Source: Schizochytrium sp. TIO01 (Eukaryota; Sar; Bigyra; Thraustochytrida; Thraustochytriidae). Taken from it: a stretch of DNA of 64,000 nucleotides. Below the pieces are notes generated by a model. The model worked only from the letters and a program-made list of their open reading frames with translations. It was not told the origin of the DNA and ran no database searches. This document shows, piece after piece, positions 40,499 through 50,127 of this stretch; within the stretch, counting starts at the first letter, position 1, and each line of letters opens with the position of its first letter. The translations under genes were made by a program, and so were the position numbers. Where the stretch lies: NCBI GenBank assembly GCA_004764695.1, contig SMSO01000005.1, positions 1,507,501 through 1,571,500 on the forward strand, in the 5' to 3' direction.

Positions 40499-43400
40499 AT
40501 GGTAGACGGGAAGGACGACATGGAAAGCATCGATGACAACTTACGAAGAAGGCAGGAACAATATGAGCAACAGGACCAACAACAAGAACGTCATGAGTTT
40601 GAGAGAGAGCAGCTACCGGATTTACACTCGCGCCGTCATCGCTATCCTCTCCATCTTCGGGTGGAGTCACCACCGGAAAGCCCCAGATTCGCTGTCGTAG
40701 GTGATGAAGCTGGCGATGATGGCGACCTTAGCAACAACAAAGACGAAATTTATCGAGCTATTAACGAAGCGGGTTTCGACAGCCTACGGGGAAGTTATGA
40801 AGTACCTGGGTCAACACAAGATGTTGGATTCCAGAGAGGGTCAGGAAGCCTCGTTTATATTGGTGAAGTTGTTGCCTCGAGCATCTATCAGGGCATCGGT
40901 CTATCAACGAGCAGAAATCGTCAGGTACATGATCGCACAAAACTCTCAGTGCACCAAGGTAGTAACAAAAAACCTTTTACATTGCTTCAACTGAAAATCA
41001 TTTCCAGTGTTCCAAGTGAAGCTTTACTCGTTCACCTTTATGAGGTAGACGAAGAATGCAACTTTACCCTAAGGATGCGCTCTTCGACTTCGATTGAAAT
41101 GTACCCAGATCAAAAATGGGAAGACATTGCAGAAACCATGATTAAAACTCGCTTTCCTCGTCTTGCAAGGTTTCCAGTCAAGTTTATTAACTCAAAGACT
41201 CGTAGAGAGTCTGCCGGAAGTGTAACTAAGTTTTTTGATAGCAGTAAAAGCTTGGCAGATATAGAGGAAACCAAAGACGAAGAAGAGGACTGTCTGTCTC
41301 AATCTGCAGAAAGCGAGAGTAAAACAACAAAAATAGGTGCAATGACATCCAACTCAAGGTCTTCTGCAGCAAGTAGTGTATCAGTTGGCGTATCGGAACC
41401 GGAGGGTCTACCAAGCCCAAGACAAAGTATTCTTATCTATTCTCCCAGAGGAGCTTCCAATGAAATCATAGTTGATCTCTGCCCAGAAGCAGTTGAAGCT
41501 CTATCAGGTCCAGGGGATGTGATCAAATCTACTTTTTATTGCCCCCGCATGGAGCGTGAGCGACATTTTGTTTGGCAGTGGACAAAAGACGGTCTTGTAC
41601 GATCTCCTCTGACACATAACATCGGCGGCATACAGATGAGTAGCATACCTACCCCGATATTCCACACAAGTGAGGATAGCCTCGCTTTAATCCCCCCCCC
41701 AATGGCTGCTCTACCAGGGAGGGCACCGCCTTTGTCTTCAACATTCATTTTTGATCTCGATGCATCTACAACAAACGGCCTTATTCCTATTAATGTTCTC
41801 CGTAATGCATTATTGAACCGCTGGAAGTTTGACGCAAGGCTCGTGGAGAATGAGATTCTTTATGACGTACAAGCTTCACCAGACAGCGAAAGCGACGGTG
41901 TTGGCCCAAGCTTGATCACTAAAATCAACACTCGCTTGAGAAATCACATTCTGGAAGGAGATACAGAAAATATTGATGAAGGTACCCGGGAAGTCATTCT
42001 AGCATTGTTTCCGTTTGCGTGTAGAGTAAGCCTTGAGTCACTGAGCGGGGGTTTTAGTGGAGCAAAAGTTTACAGATGCGTCAACACAAACTGGGACGGC
42101 CTACAAGAGATCCCATCTGTTGTCAAGGTTGACGATGGCAATTCTTTGGATGATGAATATAATCGCATGGTTGAAATTACACCGTTACTAGGAGAAAATG
42201 CACCGCGTATTCTCGCAAGGTCTTCCCATGGTCCTCTGAGCGCCCTTCGAATTGAGCTTTGTGGCGCTACATGGTGTCTCCCAGGTGCAGGAGCGTATAA
42301 TACACAAATTGCAACGTTTCGAAAACTATTTACGTCAGAAATGTTGAGACTGGTTCACACAAACTCTCGTGTTAAATCATACGTGGCGCACCGCCGGGGA
42401 AGGCCGTTCCATGCATCTACTACAGAATTACCATATTACCATGGAAATGGCAGCAAGGAACTCCCAGTGGTTTCCCCCCCTCGTAGGATGATTGCACGTG
42501 CAACAAGCGATTCGGTCACCCCAAAGGATTTTGACATTACAGTTCCAGCGTTAACAGGAGGAGAACGGCGTAAGGTTATGAGACAACGTTCTTTTACATC
42601 CGAGCTCCAAGCTGGCCCAACCTCGAGCGTTTTAAAGCATCGCATCCTTCAACGTTCATCAACCATTTCAAGTGGTTCAAACGGACAATCTGCATTCGAT
42701 GATTACAGTATACTTTTTGGTGAAATTGAGACGGTTATTGGCGAGGTATTTGGAACAATCTTACATCAAGGAGCCACAGATAAGGCTCGAATCGAAGAAA
42801 AAAGCCTATTCAGTGATGACGGTTATCCTATCGCTGCTGCTATACGACAAAATATTATTGACCGTGAGAATGATCCAGTTGCTGATCTATTCATCGGCAG
42901 GGATGCTCGTGCAATGGTTAAAATATGGACAGGTGTCGACCGCATGGATGTGAAAGAGTACTTTGAGCAATTCGCCACCATCCTTCAACGCTATGAACTT
43001 GATCAATCAACGAAACATCGTCTTATGGGGCATGTTCATGGTGATTTAAATGGAGCGAACATTCTCATTGACGGTGAAAGTATCGTGTGGCTAATCGACT
43101 TTGCTTTTTCAGGGTATCGTCCAGTTCTTACTGACTTGATGAAGCTTGAGAACACTATTTTGTTCGAGTACACTCCACTCCAAACATCTAAGGATCGTGG
43201 TATTGCAATCGATGATTTCATCAAGGTCATCCGTGCTCTGATTCACACGGATTTGGTTGAGCTTCCTCCTTTGACGTCGTTACTTTCAGACAGCAAGTCA
43301 ACTGAACACCTTGCCATTGACCAGCTTTGGAGTGTACTTCAGCGCCTTCGACAGCACGTGGTGAGCTTTTGTGCAAAGGATCCCAGACCAGAATACTTAC

Positions 43401-46400
43401 ACGCCGGGCGTCTGTTTTATGCGCTGAAAACGCTGGCCTTTCGCGATGTTTCTATTGAGCAGAAGAAACTAGCCCTTGGAAGCGCGTTGGGCCATGCAAG
43501 CCGACTTGCCAGCATTCTGGCGCCCGGTTCGCTTGGGCCCGTGCGACATCTTCAAGTATTTACCTCATTTACTGAACATAACCCTATCGATGCTCGGGTG
43601 CATGCATATCAGATGAGCTTAGAGCGCGAACAGGTGAAGCATTTCACAATCGTAGGTTCCAAAGATTCAGCATTTGTAGACCCGGTTTCCCAGAATCGGT
43701 TGTCCGTCCTCAAAGAATGTGTACGCTTAGATATATGCGAACATTCTCTTGGTGTCAATGAAGAACCTCCAACAACACGCCACAAGTTGTCAGTACGCGA
43801 AATGATGGAATATTTGTGGGCAGTTCGCGAGGTTTGCGAAAACACCACTGATTGTCAACCTTTCAAGAACGAAATATGTCCTTCCGACATCCCCGCTCTA
43901 TGCGCGAATCAGCGATTACGTGAGGACTACGAGCAGCTAGGAGCAACGTCAAGCCTGCAAGAGGTACTTGAATTAACTCTCAAACCTTTGGTATCTCTTG
44001 CAGTTAATATGCAATATGTGCCTGTAGCAGAGTTTTTTCGTCGCTTTATGTTTACGCTAGTCTATCTGGAAGGAATAAACAACCCTGCTGGAGCTTCATC
44101 ACCAAATACACAGTTACTTCGACGAGCTTCTCTAGCCGTGGCATCTGAGCTGGATTCACAATTGTATGATGTTTTGGCTGAGGTTTCCAAGCTATTTCCG
44201 TCTGATGTGCGATTGACTGATGTACGACACCTCGTAATTTTAGGTGGACCTGCCAGTGGCAAGAGTGTTCTTTTACGTCAGATCCTTGTACGACTATCTA
44301 TAGCCCAGAATCATCGCTCTCCTATTGCTCTAGTTCCACTCCGTATTCGCCTTATTGACATGGCTCGCCTCATTGAAGAACACAAACTCACCGAGAACGA
44401 CGACCTCATCATGTGCTACCTTGCAAATGCGTATGGCGCAATGTCAATGAAATTATCCTACTTTCGGTCTATTTTATTCTCAGGTAGAGTTCTTTTGCTA
44501 TTTGATGGTTTTGACGAAGCTGGATCATCTCGATCCATCATTGCAGCTTTTCTGAAACGATTTTTACAGCAGTACATGGATGTACGCACAATTGTAACAT
44601 CCCGTGAAATAGGCTTTACCGAATTCCAGAGCGACTTCTTTGAGGCTGGGTTTCGAGGTTTATTCATTTCCGCCCTGACTCATGAACGCGTTCAGGCCAT
44701 TGTGAGCTTGCGTGTACCTACACTCAAAGATGCCGAAAATAAAGGCGGCGTGTCTCCATCAGACCATTTATTCAAAGAAATATTGTCTAAAGAGTACGAC
44801 CATCTCACCCAAACGCCTCTCATGGTAAGCTTTCTCATACATACGTTGCTCTCCAGTAGGCAAACATCAACACGGCGACTGTCTGGAGCTCAAGCTCTAA
44901 TGATGCCAAAACGAGTACTTGAGAGGGCCACCGGTGGTGAAACAATGCTTAAATCTCAGCTGTTCTCTCTGGCTGTCGACCAGATGCTGCACCAGGGTGA
45001 ATTTAAATACAAACGCAATCGAGGGCGGGAAGAGAAAGAAATTGGACGGGATTTAAGTCTTTTGCAGGATCCCCTTGCACGGAGCATCATACGCAATGTT
45101 GCTTTGCTTGCACACAGTGTTGATACCGATGATGTGGAGCTAGAGCATTTTGGAGCAGTTTTAGTTGCTCTTGTGTCACAAAATCAAAGCACTGAGGAGT
45201 CTGAGAAAGCAAGATTTTCGCAAAGGCTGATCAAAGTAAATAATGCTCTCCAGAGAAGCATTGATCGAGGTTTAGTGCCACTCTTCGAAGTCTCAATTGC
45301 CGAGACTAGAAACACTGCGCGAAGTCAGGAATATACTTTCTCAAGGACTGTGTCGTTTGTTCATCGTGCGCTCAAAGAGCATCTCGCGGCAGAGTGCATA
45401 ACTGAGCGTCTCGTTTTGTGTTATGCGCAAAAGAATGAAAAGGAGTTTGCCCGAATTTGTGGCTTGTATTTTGGAGTTCACAACTTTGTTCTAAAGAACA
45501 CATTTTGGCAGGATGTATTTCTTAGTACAATGGAGCTTCTTAGTGTTGCGAATAAAGTAGAAGCAGAGAAGCTCATTCAAGTTCTTTTTGTCATGATGCC
45601 AGAGACAAGGCATGTGCAAGTGACTTTTGAAGGCTTGAGAGAGATTTGGAGTGCTATCGCAGCACAAGGTAACATTCCAGCTCTCGTAGCGATGTTGGAA
45701 TGGCGCTCCGAAATCAATGAGTCATATGTAGATGTGGAATCTGATACAGAGCATTTCGACTTAATTTTTCTTAACGATAAAGCTGGAAATAATTGCCTTC
45801 ATCTTGCTGCAGAGAAAAATCAGCTGCAGTTTGTTGAGGTAATCCTTTCGAGAATTTCCAAGGAAGATTCGAAAGAACTGCGCGCTTCGAAGGGAGTTCA
45901 AGATTGGAGTCCAGCAATCGTAGCTCTGCGAAATAACAACCTTGAGTGCTATCGTAAACTCTATTCCACTTTTGGTGATATGGACATTATAGATGAAGAT
46001 GAAAGCAATCTTCCCGAAATAATCAAGATGGTGAAACTTGGTAACGTTGCTGAGGTGAAGCAGTGCTTACAAAGAAATCCTGACGCTATAAATGACAGAG
46101 GGTCAACAGGCATGAATTCAGCGATGTGGGCGTGCGCTTTAAATGAAAACGCAGTTTTAGAGCTGTTGTTGAAGTATGGCCATCCTGAATCTTACAGCAG
46201 CAACACGTCTAAAAAGGGTAATACTTGTCTCACATTTGCTGTAGAAAATAACTCAATTGAATGCGTCAAGACATTACTCAAGAATGGCGTCAAACCGACT
46301 CAGAGAATTTATAATGGCGACTCAATGCTTCTACTAGCAACTTCCTATGGTAATGATGAGATTGTTCAACTTCTGATTGGGGCCGGTGCCCAACCGGGTG

Positions 46401-46939
46401 AGGCTATTATGGTTTCAGCTGTACAGGGTCGCGATGAATTTGTTCGTCGACTCATTCAACTCTCTGCGCTCGCATGGCCTGATGCTGTTAATGCTGTAGT
46501 GCCTGGCACTGGCGGGCATCCGGATGATCCTGAGTCTGGAGGAAATCCTTTAGCAGCAGCTTGTGTTGCTGGTCATAAAACTGTCGTTACACGATTACTG
46601 GAACTTGGAGCTGATCCAAATCATCCAATCCTTGTGCAAGGAGGGACTTGCGCATTGCATGTTGCAGTAAAAAAAGGGTACTATGATTGCGTTGCGCGGC
46701 TGCTTGAATATGGTGCAAACGCAAACACGATAAGGCCAGCAAGAGAAGCCGGGGAGCAACACGTAACAGCTCTTGATTTAGCTGAAATGGGAGTTCTGGA
46801 TCTAGAAGATTCTTCCGTGGACTTTCAGAAGTGTGCTGATATATTGCGCCACTATGGTGGAAAGAAATGGGAAGATATGTTCCCTGATGAACGTGAAGTA
46901 AACATGAAAATTCGAAGCAGCAAACCTTCTAGTTCTTAG
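40499..46939 (+). CDS. Kinase-like / NACHT NTPase / ankyrin-repeat protein (NLR-like STAND protein)
   Basis: A single intronless frame of 2146 residues. Residues 1-500 are unassigned. Residues about 505-900 form an APH/protein-kinase-like domain: a glycine loop SLSGGFSGAKVYRC (511-524), candidate Lys543, the catalytic loop H847-G-D849-LNGAN854 and the metal site D867 in WLIDFAFSG. These residues look intact. Residues about 1240-1560 carry a NACHT/STAND NTPase with Walker A GGPASGKS (1249-1256), Walker B VLLLFDGFDEAG (1331-1342) and sensor-like TSRE (1367-1370), then helical regions. From about residue 1760 there are roughly nine ankyrin repeats (NCLHLAAEKNQLQFVEVIL; CALHVAVKKGYYDCVARLL). STAND NTPases with C-terminal repeats usually act as oligomerising immune or stress sensors, and the kinase-like domain may be the effector. 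From memory the kinase part recalls the TCAD9 class tied to bacterial conflict NTPases; that link needs a profile search. Confidence 0.8.
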   Translation: MVDGKDDMESIDDNLRRRQEQYEQQDQQQERHEFEREQLPDLHSRRHRYPLHLRVESPPESPRFAVVGDEAGDDGDLSNNKDEIYRAINEAGFDSLRGSYEVPGSTQDVGFQRGSGSLVYIGEVVASSIYQGIGLSTSRNRQVHDRTKLSVHQGSNKKPFTLLQLKIISSVPSEALLVHLYEVDEECNFTLRMRSSTSIEMYPDQKWEDIAETMIKTRFPRLARFPVKFINSKTRRESAGSVTKFFDSSKSLADIEETKDEEEDCLSQSAESESKTTKIGAMTSNSRSSAASSVSVGVSEPEGLPSPRQSILIYSPRGASNEIIVDLCPEAVEALSGPGDVIKSTFYCPRMERERHFVWQWTKDGLVRSPLTHNIGGIQMSSIPTPIFHTSEDSLALIPPPMAALPGRAPPLSSTFIFDLDASTTNGLIPINVLRNALLNRWKFDARLVENEILYDVQASPDSESDGVGPSLITKINTRLRNHILEGDTENIDEGTREVILALFPFACRVSLESLSGGFSGAKVYRCVNTNWDGLQEIPSVVKVDDGNSLDDEYNRMVEITPLLGENAPRILARSSHGPLSALRIELCGATWCLPGAGAYNTQIATFRKLFTSEMLRLVHTNSRVKSYVAHRRGRPFHASTTELPYYHGNGSKELPVVSPPRRMIARATSDSVTPKDFDITVPALTGGERRKVMRQRSFTSELQAGPTSSVLKHRILQRSSTISSGSNGQSAFDDYSILFGEIETVIGEVFGTILHQGATDKARIEEKSLFSDDGYPIAAAIRQNIIDRENDPVADLFIGRDARAMVKIWTGVDRMDVKEYFEQFATILQRYELDQSTKHRLMGHVHGDLNGANILIDGESIVWLIDFAFSGYRPVLTDLMKLENTILFEYTPLQTSKDRGIAIDDFIKVIRALIHTDLVELPPLTSLLSDSKSTEHLAIDQLWSVLQRLRQHVVSFCAKDPRPEYLHAGRLFYALKTLAFRDVSIEQKKLALGSALGHASRLASILAPGSLGPVRHLQVFTSFTEHNPIDARVHAYQMSLEREQVKHFTIVGSKDSAFVDPVSQNRLSVLKECVRLDICEHSLGVNEEPPTTRHKLSVREMMEYLWAVREVCENTTDCQPFKNEICPSDIPALCANQRLREDYEQLGATSSLQEVLELTLKPLVSLAVNMQYVPVAEFFRRFMFTLVYLEGINNPAGASSPNTQLLRRASLAVASELDSQLYDVLAEVSKLFPSDVRLTDVRHLVILGGPASGKSVLLRQILVRLSIAQNHRSPIALVPLRIRLIDMARLIEEHKLTENDDLIMCYLANAYGAMSMKLSYFRSILFSGRVLLLFDGFDEAGSSRSIIAAFLKRFLQQYMDVRTIVTSREIGFTEFQSDFFEAGFRGLFISALTHERVQAIVSLRVPTLKDAENKGGVSPSDHLFKEILSKEYDHLTQTPLMVSFLIHTLLSSRQTSTRRLSGAQALMMPKRVLERATGGETMLKSQLFSLAVDQMLHQGEFKYKRNRGREEKEIGRDLSLLQDPLARSIIRNVALLAHSVDTDDVELEHFGAVLVALVSQNQSTEESEKARFSQRLIKVNNALQRSIDRGLVPLFEVSIAETRNTARSQEYTFSRTVSFVHRALKEHLAAECITERLVLCYAQKNEKEFARICGLYFGVHNFVLKNTFWQDVFLSTMELLSVANKVEAEKLIQVLFVMMPETRHVQVTFEGLREIWSAIAAQGNIPALVAMLEWRSEINESYVDVESDTEHFDLIFLNDKAGNNCLHLAAEKNQLQFVEVILSRISKEDSKELRASKGVQDWSPAIVALRNNNLECYRKLYSTFGDMDIIDEDESNLPEIIKMVKLGNVAEVKQCLQRNPDAINDRGSTGMNSAMWACALNENAVLELLLKYGHPESYSSNTSKKGNTCLTFAVENNSIECVKTLLKNGVKPTQRIYNGDSMLLLATSYGNDEIVQLLIGAGAQPGEAIMVSAVQGRDEFVRRLIQLSALAWPDAVNAVVPGTGGHPDDPESGGNPLAAACVAGHKTVVTRLLELGADPNHPILVQGGTCALHVAVKKGYYDCVARLLEYGANANTIRPAREAGEQHVTALDLAEMGVLDLEDSSVDFQKCADILRHYGGKKWEDMFPDEREVNMKIRSSKPSSS

Positions 46940-47322: not shown

Positions 47323-50127
47323 TTACTGAGAGAGTTTTGCATTGACAGCGAGGACAGCCTTAGTGAGGCGCTCAACGCTACGCGGGGTATGATACGGTCC
47401 AAATCCAACACGCACGAACTCCTTACGCAAGTCAACATCAATGCCGTGCTCCTCGTGAAGGATATCGACAACAGCCTTGGCCTTGGCGGCGTCAGACTGC
47501 TTAAAAACGAGGGTGTGGCTCTGGGTTGCCGGGTTCTTGGAGCCGTCAAGCAGGTTTGCTCGCGAAAATGGAACAGCACTGTTCTCGCCAGCAACAGCAT
47601 CCTCCAGGAAGATCTGCTGTGCCTTAAGCACGGTCTCGTGCATAAAATCAACGTTTACATCCTGTTCGCACCACATGCGCATAACATGCACGAAGACAAC
47701 GAGGCACGGCATGAAAGACGGAGTTCCTCCCATCAATGAGACGCCTTGAGCAAAGTTTGCCGGCGATCCCATGCAAATTCCCTTACTACCGTTTGCGAGC
47801 ACACTCGGATCGGCGAGCCAACCGGTGAAGAGTGGGCGAGGCACGGCACGCTGAGGAGGCAGCGCCACGAAGCAAGCATTCGCTGCCGATCCGACGTGCT
47901 TGAGCATGCCAGCAACATAGTGGAATCGCTTGTCATCAGCAGAACTGAGATCTGTGGGAATGGCACCAAATCCGTGGTAGCCGTCCACAATGACTAAAGA
48001 GTCCTTGTTCTTCTCGCTCTTGTCTAGGGCATCTGCTGCACGCTTGGAGAAGGCAGCAACGTCATGGATCAGGGTCTGTTGCTGAAGGTAAGTACACTGC
48101 GATACATAGACCATATCAATCACAGGGGTATTCTCAATGGCCTCGATGATGCGGTCCTCAAAGGTCTCACGCGGCTCAATGGGCACAACAACAACCTGGA
48201 AATAGTCGTCACCAAGCTCACGAAGACGGTTGACCTGGCGAGTCATGGAGTAAAATTCAGTATCAGACGTAATAACAACCTCGGGGCGCTTCTCCTTGAG
48301 AGCGATTTCGAGACGCTGCGAAAGAAGACGCGACACTACTTCGTGCGAATTATGGCCAAATTCAATGGGGTGATCGGAAGAAAGCTTAAGGATATTGCGG
48401 ATGAATTTACTGGCCTCAGGCATGATCTTGGCAAAGAGCGTGTCCCAACTGTGGTTACCTTCAACGTGAAACAGGCGGTAAAGCTCCTGAAGGGCGCTGT
48501 ACAAAGCACGCGGGGGGATTTCACCCCAAGCGTGGTCGAGAAAGGCAAGGTTGCGCTCAGCACCGCCACCAAAGTTGCGCGGCACACCAGTAGAGCTATA
48601 CAAAGTTCCAAGACGGTCGTCCACGATATCAGAAGCGCGGGACTCGTTGTCACTTGCTGGGTTACTGGTCTCCTCGCCGTTCTCGCGCTCCTTGAGGCGG
48701 TCCTGCTCGATTTTGTCCATAATGCGACCTTTGAGGTGAGCAAGACGCTCGTCAGTACGGCGGCCAAGTTCAGTACGTGCGTAGTCGAGAACAGGGAACA
48801 CAGGCTTCTCAAAGCCCTTCTTAAGGGCCTGAACGCTCATCTTCATGGTTCCCTTGGCACCGCTTCCAATCACATTGGTCGCGAGGATAAAGTGCTTCTG
48901 AAAGAAGCCTCCAATGAGAGCGGACTCTACAATCTCCAGAGACTTGATGTACTCATAAATGGCAGGCTGGTGCTCAGGGTGTGCGTAAAGCTCGAGAAGG
49001 GCCTCTTGCACCTCCTCTGATTCGTGGTCCTCGGTTTTTTCTTTGAGAAGACGGTCGAGAACAGGGTCGATGAGCTCAAGAACCCGTTGACGAAACTGCT
49101 TCACTTGAGTGCTGCCAGCGCCAGATGTACCCTCAATTTCTACCTTGAGCTCGAGGTAGTCACGGAGGACCATACTAGTGAGCATCATGACGTGGGCACC
49201 GAGATACTCAAAGGTTGATGCAGCTACGCGGACAGCGGCGGCAGCATTACGGAAGTGACCATTGCGTTTAATGTGCTCCTGGGCGGAGTTAATGCGGTCA
49301 AGAAGAACAAAAGCCCAGCACTCCGTACCCAAGTGGACTGCACGGAAGAAGAAATCTTCTTTGTGGTTGTACTCCTGCTCGGTGAGCAGACTAGCCATCA
49401 GAGAAGAGCGGACCATGGCCTCATAGGCAAGGTATTTCCGGCCGAAAGGCATGGTGTACGGGGAGAGGCCAACAAGCTCACGAAGGTTGGAGAGCTGCTC
49501 TTCGATACCGACGCCAACGGTCCAGTCGCCAAAGCTTGTCATGAAGGCACCAGTGATGTTGCGAATGACCTTACGGAGGGACTGAAGTTCGTGAGTGGCC
49601 ATGCCATCTTGCAATGCCTTCTCCACAGACTCGATAACGAGCTTGAGGGCAGATGACTGCCGTGTACGGTCAATGTCACGTTCAGAAGCAGTCGGGGGGC
49701 CATCTTCGATGGGGAAGTTTTGCAAAAGAGATCCAATGGGCAGGGGAGGGGCCTCGGTTTCAAGGCGCTCCTCCTCAAGCTCACCATCAATGACCTCTGC
49801 CAGGAGAGCAAATTGGCTCTCGATATCTGCGGCAATCATTTCAATTCGGGGCCGCTTGACGACGTAAGGGCGGTTGTCACTAATAAAGTGGGACAGAAGC
49901 ACCAATGCGAGCTCGACACCCTGCATACCGGCCGTGAAGCAAGGCTCAAGGCGTGGGTTGTTGGTGACCGGCTCGTACCATGTTGCGCGAACTTTGCGGA
50001 GAAATACGTAATCTTCATACAGGTCGCGAATGCGTGCCTCGCGAGCAGCCTTGGTGGCGGCTACCTTGGCCTTGACTTCCTCGCGGGTTTTCACCTCACC
50101 GGCATCTTCAGGTTCGTGGCTCATCAT
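47323..50127 (-). CDS. Tryptophan 2,3-dioxygenase-like / kynureninase-like fusion
   Basis: An intact intronless frame of 934 residues. Residues about 40-460 read like an all-helical TDO: EDFFFRAVHLGTECWAFVLL (TDO pattern EHLFI..HQ.YELWF, H265), then RVAASTFEYLGAHVMMLTSM, STQVKQFRQRVLELID, and QKHFILATNVIGSGAKGT (TDO haem-ligand region, H412). The canonical HQ and GTGG.SG signatures are altered. Residues about 520-934 are a fold-type I PLP enzyme closest to kynureninase: LAFLDHAWGEIPP at its start, VIVDGYHGFGAIP (D715), HYVAGMLKHVGSAANACF with candidate Schiff-base K743, and VDLRKEFVRVGFGPYHTPRS near the end. TDO and kynureninase catalyse steps one and three of tryptophan degradation; the formamidase step is absent. 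Activity of the TDO half is uncertain. Confidence 0.75.
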   Translation of the reverse strand: MMSHEPEDAGEVKTREEVKAKVAATKAAREARIRDLYEDYVFLRKVRATWYEPVTNNPRLEPCFTAGMQGVELALVLLSHFISDNRPYVVKRPRIEMIAADIESQFALLAEVIDGELEEERLETEAPPLPIGSLLQNFPIEDGPPTASERDIDRTRQSSALKLVIESVEKALQDGMATHELQSLRKVIRNITGAFMTSFGDWTVGVGIEEQLSNLRELVGLSPYTMPFGRKYLAYEAMVRSSLMASLLTEQEYNHKEDFFFRAVHLGTECWAFVLLDRINSAQEHIKRNGHFRNAAAAVRVAASTFEYLGAHVMMLTSMVLRDYLELKVEIEGTSGAGSTQVKQFRQRVLELIDPVLDRLLKEKTEDHESEEVQEALLELYAHPEHQPAIYEYIKSLEIVESALIGGFFQKHFILATNVIGSGAKGTMKMSVQALKKGFEKPVFPVLDYARTELGRRTDERLAHLKGRIMDKIEQDRLKERENGEETSNPASDNESRASDIVDDRLGTLYSSTGVPRNFGGGAERNLAFLDHAWGEIPPRALYSALQELYRLFHVEGNHSWDTLFAKIMPEASKFIRNILKLSSDHPIEFGHNSHEVVSRLLSQRLEIALKEKRPEVVITSDTEFYSMTRQVNRLRELGDDYFQVVVVPIEPRETFEDRIIEAIENTPVIDMVYVSQCTYLQQQTLIHDVAAFSKRAADALDKSEKNKDSLVIVDGYHGFGAIPTDLSSADDKRFHYVAGMLKHVGSAANACFVALPPQRAVPRPLFTGWLADPSVLANGSKGICMGSPANFAQGVSLMGGTPSFMPCLVVFVHVMRMWCEQDVNVDFMHETVLKAQQIFLEDAVAGENSAVPFSRANLLDGSKNPATQSHTLVFKQSDAAKAKAVVDILHEEHGIDVDLRKEFVRVGFGPYHTPRSVERLTKAVLAVNAKLSQ

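Follow-up and report, generated by a model that had tools for sequence, protein, structure and literature searches.

Architecture of the P0001 frame

We analyzed a 64,000-nucleotide window of the Schizochytrium sp. TIO01 genome. On its forward strand lies a single open frame of 2146 codons encoding protein P0001, in which a TCAD9 kinase is followed by a NACHT NTPase and then by some ten ankyrin repeats (Table 1). From base composition alone, the chance expectation for a frame this long in the window has a log10 of about −47. The uninterrupted frame reported by the initial annotation was confirmed, where "intronless" describes the open frame in the sequence and no more. P0001 is probably one gene rather than several, because its homologue P0002 from the thraustochytrid Hondaea, a single record of 2132 aa, is colinear with it. 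Identity to P0002 was 80% in the kinase N-lobe, 67% in the C-lobe, 57% in the NACHT domain and 48% in the ankyrin part; judged by these alignments, the kinase is the best-kept part. Residues 1–495 matched zero Pfam families at E 0.05. The sequences show the domain order, the cross-species conservation and, in kinase and NTPase, intact motifs; the fold matches come from predicted models. Together they bear out the layout of a STAND sensor, with a kinase, a NACHT-winged-helix module of NLR fold and repeats. Seven further large frames in the window carry WD40, LIM, thiolase, Hs1pro-1_N and RMI1 domains or, in two cases, are unmatched.

Table 1. Features of the P0001 frame, with coordinates in the window.
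Feature	Residues	Coordinates	Strand	Basis
Whole frame, kinase-NACHT-ankyrin protein P0001, 2146 aa		40499..46939	+	ORF, ATG start; colinear homologues
N-terminal extension, poorly conserved	1–310	40499..41428	+	30% identity to Hondaea homologue
Conserved pre-kinase region	311–494	41429..41980	+	61% to Hondaea; without Pfam match
TCAD9 kinase N-lobe	495–620	41981..42358	+	Gly-rich GGFSGA 517–522, K543, E553; Pfam; 80% to Hondaea
Inter-lobe insert, predicted disordered	626–731	42374..42691	+	pLDDT <50 at model residues 142–247
TCAD9/APH kinase C-lobe	736–1010	42704..43528	+	Pfam, alignment, structure model
HGDLNGAN catalytic loop	847–854	43037..43060	+	HxDLN in 38/39 A6 rows
D867-F868-A869, metal-binding Asp, DFG-like position	867–869	43097..43105	+	Asp in 38/39 A6 rows
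Kinase-to-NACHT linker, conserved DP(I/V)S...L	1061–1082	43679..43744	+	D1061, P1062, L1077 invariant 7/7
NACHT NTPase core	1226–1400	44174..44698	+	Pfam (under cut-off), structure model, Foldseek
Walker A GGPASGKS	1249–1256	44243..44266	+	Read in sequence; absent from deposited Hondaea P0002
Walker B VLLLFDGFDEAG	1331–1342	44489..44524	+	D1336, G1337, D1339, E1340 invariant 7/7
TSR, sensor-1 type Arg	1367–1369	44597..44605	+	R1369 invariant 7/7; R190 of A7, 11/11
Helical HD/winged-helix region	1401–1700	44699..45598	+	P1440, H1622 invariant 7/7; model
About ten ankyrin repeats	1757–2090	45767..46768	+	Ank_2; ankyrin structures match; count by eye

Ankyrin repeats and paralogues

The C-terminal, superstructure-forming repeats of P0001 matched Ank_2 with 119.6 bits (E 9e-35), and our count by eye is close to the nine or so initially proposed. 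PADLOC matches were driven by these repeats, save two: mad8, matched weakly at the P-loop (5.2e-5), and PD-T4-6, matched in P0007 (0.062). The repeats also caused NCBIfam matches to Dot/Icm ankyrin effectors, an identity we reject because the scores lie far under the cut-offs (46 versus 600 bits).

The 64-Mb Schizochytrium genome holds at least four kinase-NACHT copies, P0001 included, and a fifth copy without the kinase (contig C30, 6.70 Mb); these counts are lower bounds. On a constant core the tails vary, i.e., ankyrin in the copies on C4, C30 and C24, HEAT in that on C13 and LRR in P0006, a homologue from another organism. A weak PF19974 match on C5 belongs to a different protein, by eye a kinase plus a nuclease-like region, and was left uncounted. 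Two of the four kinase copies, those on C4 and C30, have one close Hondaea counterpart each. The deposited P0002 lacks the stretch holding Walker A, through either a faulty gene model or true loss. Three protein searches scored about 7,980 candidates each, and the eukaryotic spread of the family is therefore a lower bound; the second of these returned 13 proteins, three known members and ten others that, by their listed domains, matched through ankyrin or NACHT or were unclear, and zero new members. The Schizochytrium genome also encodes a TIR-NPHP3_N-WD40 protein.

Identities of ankyrin versus NACHT parts were 48 versus 57%, 46 versus 40%, 31 versus 40% (against P0004), 40 versus 42% and, in the C30 pair, 64 versus 60%. 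The ankyrin value hence stays within about 10 points of the NACHT value in all five comparisons, and we discard the idea of hypervariable sensor repeats. Within the C30 pair, kinase identity (62%) did not exceed ankyrin identity.

These data bear on whether P0001 is a classical immune receptor, with ankyrin repeats sensing changing viral or bacterial molecules and a kinase triggering cell suicide or alarm. Its architecture and NLR fold would suit such a role, as would the TIR-NPHP3_N-WD40 protein, the lower conservation of ankyrin than NACHT against P0004, and the occurrence of bacterial TCAD9 with EAD7, NACHT and FGE-sulfatase domains; in the available text of PMC7159879, EADs and FGS domains are parts of conflict systems. 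However, between-species identity and copy count do not show the rapidly diversifying or expanded repertoire that is typical of NLR receptors, if not strictly part of their definition. An arms-race immune role is unsupported because the copies are few, two of them have single Hondaea counterparts, and the repeats are about as conserved as the NTPase. We consider the classical receptor unlikely; of the immune sensor first proposed, the layout is supported and the immune role so far is not.

The NACHT and winged-helix module

The assignment of a NACHT-type NTPase held for fold and motifs and failed at the Pfam cut-off (21.8 versus 26.7 bits). The paralogues on C24 and C30 (6.70 Mb) and the homologues P0002 and P0006 also scored below this cut-off, and P0003, P0004, P0005, P0007 and the paralogues on C13 and C30 (3.26 Mb) above it. 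In Foldseek, the NACHT model matched NLRC4 at E 1.9e-8, with NLRC4, NLRP and NOD2 structures best. The first match of a non-NLR kind, ORC, came at rank 24; 15 of the 23 before it are named NLRs (NLRC4, NLRP2, NLRP7, NLRP14, NOD2, NLRP3 and NLRP9), and the remaining eight come from unnamed chains in oocyte SCMC or lattice complexes, assemblies that include NLRPs. An NLR-like fold of the NTPase module is thus supported by the model. A profile from the NACHT alignment (A7) gave 574 matches to solved structures; the best 60 were all of ankyrin type, since this alignment included whole homologues with their repeats.

P0001 has the full set of Walker A, DGxDE Walker B, sensor Arg, HD1 Pro and winged-helix His. 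Both Walker motifs were thus intact, as initially described, and residues 1620–1632 within the HD/winged-helix region read as the NLR-type motif FVHRALKEHLAAE. Of the 11 A7 rows, no fewer than 90% retain the Walker A Gly and Lys positions, and 11 of 11 have R1369 and P1440. Among the relatives, the C30 group (P0018–P0021) has its winged-helix His displaced or lacking, Walker B of P0020 reads DGLND, and the C24 paralogue combines a degenerate Walker B (DGISQAA) with HNDLN in the kinase loop and a split frame.

A scaffold, in which the kinase, NACHT and ankyrin parts are fixed modules for interaction and no NTP switch operates, is rather improbable. The deposited Hondaea sequence without P-loop, the degenerate C24 Walker B and the repeat similarity of the ankyrin part to ankyrins and Kidins220 would agree with a scaffold, but the conservation of Walker A, R1369 and P1440 in A7 and of Walker B in seven of seven sequences argues against it.

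The kinase domain and its bacterial relatives

P0001 matched TCAD9 (PF19974) in two stretches with 90.5 bits (curated cut-off 40; E 1.7e-25), well beyond chance, and Pfam APH at residues 833–883 with 27.0 bits, above the cut-off of 23.2. The proposed APH/kinase-like domain with its HGDLNGAN and DFA motifs is thereby borne out. In a kinase alignment of 39 rows from bacteria to thraustochytrids (A6), the β3 Lys and αC Glu occur in 38, the exception, P0005, beginning downstream of both; HxDLN and the Asp after it are missing from P0022 alone, which ends upstream of them. The structure model ranked APH kinases first in Foldseek (probability 1.00, best E 1.4e-3), with zero matches at E ≤0.001. By its sequence, the TCAD9/APH kinase looks catalytically competent, and with the catalytic motifs kept we reject a pseudokinase reading.

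The kinase fold might still be a non-enzymatic sensor that binds a nucleotide or ligand and feeds the NACHT switch. According to Kaur et al. 2020 (PMC7159879), catalytic residues are disrupted in most kinase domains of bacterial ternary conflict systems, but a few active APH-type kinases are also noted; moreover, P0001 and the covering rows keep these residues, save the HNDLN of C24. We regard a non-enzymatic role as very unlikely.

In the kinase tree, eukaryotic TCAD9 kinases form one clade. Bacterial kin of the kinase had been anticipated; in the sampled set the nearest are mostly isochorismatase/TCAD9/DSP phosphatase proteins, in which we looked for an NTPase motif and found none. TCAD9 had been taken for a class of conflict NTPases, which is incorrect since it is a kinase-fold domain. 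A bacterial link to NTPases does exist outside this nearest kin, i.e., TCAD9-NACHT-FGE proteins with an FGE-sulfatase end at two loci of a Myxococcota sample (L095, L096) and TCAD9 joined to AAA_35 in one Chloroflexota genome (L078). The TCAD9-NTPase pairing is therefore not unique to eukaryotes. Other partners in picked frames were AAA_21 (one), EAD7 (L077), REC (L079, L080) and a Ser/Thr kinase (L076). In the best tree, bacterial TCAD9-NACHT kinases fall outside the eukaryote-plus-isochorismatase branch; a clade of eukaryotes with them, a grouping picked after tree inspection, was not rejected in the AU test (p-AU 0.071). Search patterns from eukaryotic proteins may have helped to place the isochorismatase set beside the eukaryotes.

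The bacterial sample comprised 58 loci (L069 and L070 weak and short), 41 of them in alignment A4 and 25 in the trees. The trees omit the partial P0005 and P0022, the last tree also L083, the only one of L083–L087 in which the pattern yielded a frame; the weak match L082 was read, unscored. Of eight frames >1000 aa, G437, G714, G555 and G710 were annotated and G744 (L097), G605, G565 and G696 omitted. In viral contigs, 48 TCAD9 pattern matches contained 0 relatives.

The bacterial kin of the kinase might suggest bacterial contamination or an assembly joining several genes, but the frame is part of a 64-Mb assembly whose other multi-Mb contigs carry paralogues, and a Hondaea record is colinear along its entire length; both contradict this, and we dismiss it as extremely improbable.

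Proposed working and comparison with known systems

With slightly better than even confidence, we propose that P0001 is an NLR-architecture (STAND) switch gating a TCAD9-family APH-fold kinase as its output domain. At rest, the NACHT-HD-winged-helix module would hold nucleotide in a closed form and mask the kinase by autoinhibition. A ligand on the ankyrin repeats would open this form, and nucleotide exchange would let NACHT modules assemble. Kinase domains thus brought together would phosphorylate a substrate, for which a lipid or small molecule is likelier than a protein. We expect the ankyrin ligand to be conserved, either endogenous or a microbial product that does not vary, and not fast-changing. 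Against the STAND switch stand the sub-threshold NACHT scores of P0001 and four relatives, the missing Walker A of P0002, the degenerate C24, the kinase-less C30 copy (6.70 Mb), the altered His of the C30 group, the DGLND of P0020, the weak E-values of the kinase model and the C30 pair, in which the kinase is no better kept than the ankyrin part. A more specific version, which we offer as a doubtful possibility, has the kinase of the switch descend from a bacterial signalling kinase and make a phosphorylated small-molecule signal, with Myxococcota arriving at the same design in parallel (TCAD9-NACHT-FGE). If true, an NTP-gated second-messenger kinase sensor would be common to bacteria and protists.

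A marine protist thus has a family of giant proteins, few in number and conserved, with the build of animal and plant immune sensors and a bacterial-type kinase as the probable signalling part. Since the enzyme proposed as output can be assayed in an obvious way, the question of what a STAND switch turns on becomes directly testable, and with it a kinase switch under NTP control of a kind not yet explored. Bacteria (TCAD9-NACHT, TCAD9-AAA_35) and protists (TCAD9-NACHT) offer comparable systems from two domains of life.

Research on NLR-type sensors covers animals, plants, fungi and bacteria. Titles and abstracts of the papers listed for thraustochytrids (NACHT, NLR) and labyrinthulomycetes (ankyrin) described no such sensor in this group, and among the matches listed none described a P0001-type family by title or abstract. 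A literature search for aminoglycoside phosphotransferase with NACHT found nothing relevant, and the available text of PMC7159879 contains no term beginning with TCAD.

P0001 shares with animal NLRs (NLRC4, NOD2, NLRPs) the NACHT-HD-winged-helix fold and motif set. In contrast to these, it has a kinase output, with CARD or PYD not found by Pfam, and ankyrin repeats in place of the LRR, which occurs in the homologue P0006. Fungal NLR-like proteins resemble it more in layout, joining NACHT and ankyrin to an N-terminal enzyme; the accessible part of Dyrka et al. 2014 (PMC4986451) lists PKinase among these enzymes, so that an N-terminal kinase is less unusual than initially thought. The fungal kinase is, however, Pkinase (PF00069) and that of P0001 TCAD9/APH, and the same text describes highly alike repeats within one fungal gene. 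With APH-type small-molecule kinases P0001 shares fold and HGD/D motifs, but its kinase sits in a STAND protein and has a long disordered inter-lobe insert. Bacterial TCAD9 proteins have the same kinase-fold domain with both lobes and catalytic motifs, and some are likewise fused to NTPases (NACHT in L095/L096, AAA_35 in L078). In contrast to P0001, FGE-sulfatase takes the place of ankyrin at the end of bacterial TCAD9-NACHT proteins, and the nearest bacterial set differs from P0001 by its mostly isochorismatase/TCAD9/DSP phosphatase build.

A single gene with kinase, NACHT and ankyrin parts

The uninterrupted 2146-codon frame proposed in the initial annotation was recovered at 40499-46939 on the plus strand, open from its first ATG; by base composition alone, about 10^-47 such open frames are expected in the window. 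A homologous protein from Hondaea fermentalgiana (P0002) is colinear with its product from end to end (51% identity overall in the alignment, 57% across the searched region), which argues for a single, conserved gene. The segment read as kinase-like matched Pfam TCAD9 (90.5 bits, cut-off 40), as anticipated, and APH (27.0 bits, cut-off 23.2), and ankyrin repeats matched Ank_2 (119.6 bits). A Pfam NACHT match is present but stays under the cut-off (21.8 versus 26.7 bits). No Pfam family matched residues 1-495. The adjoining frame on the minus strand matches Hs1pro-1_N (31.2 bits, cut-off 25); this family takes its name from a plant nematode-resistance gene.

In an alignment of 39 kinase sequences, the β3 lysine (K543) and αC glutamate (E553) are found in 38 rows, P0005 starting beyond both. 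HxDLN and the following aspartate are likewise found in 38 rows, P0022 ending short of both; the paralogue on contig C24 has HNDLN in place of HGDLN. The AlphaFold2 model of residues 485-1070 (mean pLDDT 77.2, pTM 0.76; pLDDT ≥90 at 323 of 586 residues) contains a disordered insert (626-731). APH kinases occupied the top Foldseek ranks, with APH(4)-Ia at E 1.4e-3 and probability 1.00. None of the 1870 matches reached E ≤0.001, and the fold assignment hence leans on the Pfam and motif evidence too.

Walker B, R1369, P1440 and H1622 of the NTPase part are invariant in 7/7 aligned rows, R1369 and P1440 also in a wider alignment (11/11). The model of residues 1180-1760 (pLDDT 75.4, pTM 0.67, 11 input sequences) matched NLRC4 (E 1.9e-8), NLRP2, NLRP7, NLRP14, NOD2, NLRP3 and NLRP9, with 108 structure matches at E ≤0.001. 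Ranked above the first ORC entry were 23 matches: 15 named NLRs and eight unnamed chains of oocyte complexes, which contain NLRPs. Three observations count against the NTPase reading: Walker A residues are missing in frame from P0002 as deposited, possibly owing to a mis-called intron; the winged-helix histidine is shifted or missing in the C30 group; and Walker B of P0020 reads DGLND.

Identity with the Hondaea homologue was 30% in the N-extension, 61% before the kinase, 80%, 38% and 67% in kinase N-lobe, insert and C-lobe, 57% in NACHT (82% of columns aligned, the P-loop stretch missing), 52% in the HD/winged helix and 48% in the ankyrin part. Ankyrin versus NACHT identities were 46 vs 40% for P0003, 31 vs 40% for P0004 and 40 vs 42% for P0005; the C30 pair showed 64% (ankyrin), 60% (NACHT) and 62% (kinase). 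Between species, the repeats therefore do not appear to evolve clearly faster than the NTPase.

Relatives in eukaryotes and bacteria

Protein search with residues 480-1060 retrieved six proteins. TCAD9, NACHT and ankyrin parts occur together in P0003, P0004 and P0005, the last beginning within the kinase. P0006 combines TCAD9 with LRR and scores for NACHT under the cut-off, and the domains of P0007 are thioredoxin, TCAD9, NACHT, Clp_N and WWE. With the paralogues as queries, we added P0018 (identical, across the query, to the C30 copy), P0019 (Hondaea), P0020, P0021 and P0022 (EF-hand, PTS_2-RNA, partial TCAD9). As each search scored the best ~8,000 candidates, the family is at least this widespread among eukaryotes.

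In the organism's own assembly (64.06 Mb, 37 contigs; member counts are lower bounds), TCAD9 occurs together with NACHT, or with a part resembling it, in at least four places, the present gene included. The C13 frame is interrupted within NACHT and resumes in another frame; an intron, a sequencing error or a real break may be the cause. Weak DUF4062 and AAA_22 matches, under cut-off, lie downstream. The degenerate C24 copy has DGISQAA as Walker B, and a second, overlapping frame carries its ankyrin repeats. For the fifth member, a kinase was absent from the frame and from the 10 kb searched. The TIR_2 frame on C30 (TIR_2 49.2 bits, cut-off 28; NPHP3_N 56.2 bits, cut-off 24.8) is a second NLR-like architecture within this protist's genome.

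Paralogues, related frames and bacterial proteins
Feature	Location	Strand	Remarks
TCAD9-NACHT paralogue	C30:3.26 Mb		2237-aa frame, ankyrin
TCAD9-NACHT paralogue, giant	C13:1.65 Mb (L009:2204-10000, L071:1-4689)		HEAT repeats in continuation
TCAD9 + NACHT-like paralogue, degenerate	C24:94 kb (L010:2390-7211)	minus	NACHT 13.3 bits
Fifth family member, kinase-less	C30:6.70 Mb (L073:4502-8698)		ankyrin; NACHT 25.3 bits, below cut-off
Copia-like RNase H frame (by eye)	L073:328-1383		upstream of fifth member
TIR_2 + NPHP3_N NTPase + WD40 repeats	C30:8.39 Mb (L074:3615-7277)		1220-aa frame
STAND-type frame	L072:3688-8850 (own genome)		DUF4062, NACHT, HTH_NWD1, WD40-type repeats
STAND-type frame	L075:1376-6556 (own genome)	minus	resembles L072 by eye
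Frame outside the kinase-NACHT family	C5 (L012:5203-7452)	minus	749 aa; C-terminal kinase with HGDLN loop; nuclease-like region by eye
Adjoining frame	window 47323-50127	minus	934 aa
TCAD9-NACHT-FGE-sulfatase protein	L095:73-3912	minus	Myxococcota sample
TCAD9-NACHT-FGE-sulfatase protein	L096:3767-8524	plus	Myxococcota sample
Frame, TCAD9 C-terminal to caspase-like region (by eye)	L098:3180-6590		Pfam: TCAD9 and weak APH, nothing else reported

Scanning 84,980 species (one genome each) with a kinase alignment gave 58 bacterial loci, including two short, weak matches. P-loop and DGxDE patterns occurred in 0/58 frames, some of which are cut short. Of 41 of the proteins scanned with Pfam, all matched TCAD9, 32 matched Isochorismatase, 30 CDKN3 and DSPc phosphatase, and 28 APH; this widespread protein (L013-L070) mostly joins an isochorismatase-like domain, a TCAD9 kinase and a DSP phosphatase. 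The position of the cysteine among the isochorismatase enzyme residues is by eye an invariant lysine (TEAK), so that this part may be a ligand binder. In two Flavobacteriaceae loci (L048, L053), ion-channel-like frames (by eye) stand beside the TCAD9 gene, with STAS-like proteins nearby.

PF19974 exceeded its cut-off in 6/201, 8/292, 24/282 and 11/294 genomes of phylum samples centred, respectively, on an Anaerolineales genome, a genome titled Cyanobacteria, Enhygromyxa and a Planctomycetota genome, each count including the centre genome, selected for having PF19974. Fusion partners of TCAD9 in hand-picked bacterial frames were Ser/Thr kinase, EAD7, AAA_35, REC, AAA_21 ATPase and TPR; two further hand-picked frames combine TCAD9, NACHT (31.5 and 31.8 bits, over cut-off) and FGE-sulfatase.

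Origin of the kinase-NACHT fusion

Eukaryotic kinases formed one group in 3/3 trees, with support of 100/100 in the first (12 eukaryotic versus 25 bacterial rows) and 100/97 and 100/98 after addition of six and nine further bacterial rows. Together with the isochorismatase-type set they split from the remaining bacterial TCAD9 kinases (99/96 and 96/97). Kinases from the TCAD9-NACHT proteins in the Myxococcota sample fell outside this grouping, which favours two separate kinase-NACHT fusions. A common origin is also possible, since a tree joining these kinases with the eukaryotic ones was not rejected in the AU test (p-AU 0.071) and long branches are present.

Proposed working and comparison with known systems

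Domain order, motifs, folds and conservation are the observed part of the proposed working. From sequence and models, the protein is most likely a STAND switch under whose control an APH-fold kinase stands. The ankyrin repeats would bind a ligand as input, the STAND module would pass from autoinhibition through nucleotide exchange to assembly, and the kinase thus gated would transfer phosphate to a substrate. Small molecules are the usual substrates of APH-fold enzymes, and by analogy we predict, with slight preference, a small molecule or lipid rather than a protein. Small-molecule action is likewise suggested for APH-type effectors by Kaur et al. (PMC7159879).

The individual parts of the protein are already known, and for fungi, kinases are listed among the N-terminal domains that NLR-like proteins carry (PMC4986451). 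In the open-access literature searched, we found no description of a eukaryotic NLR-like protein that carries a TCAD9 kinase of the APH type.
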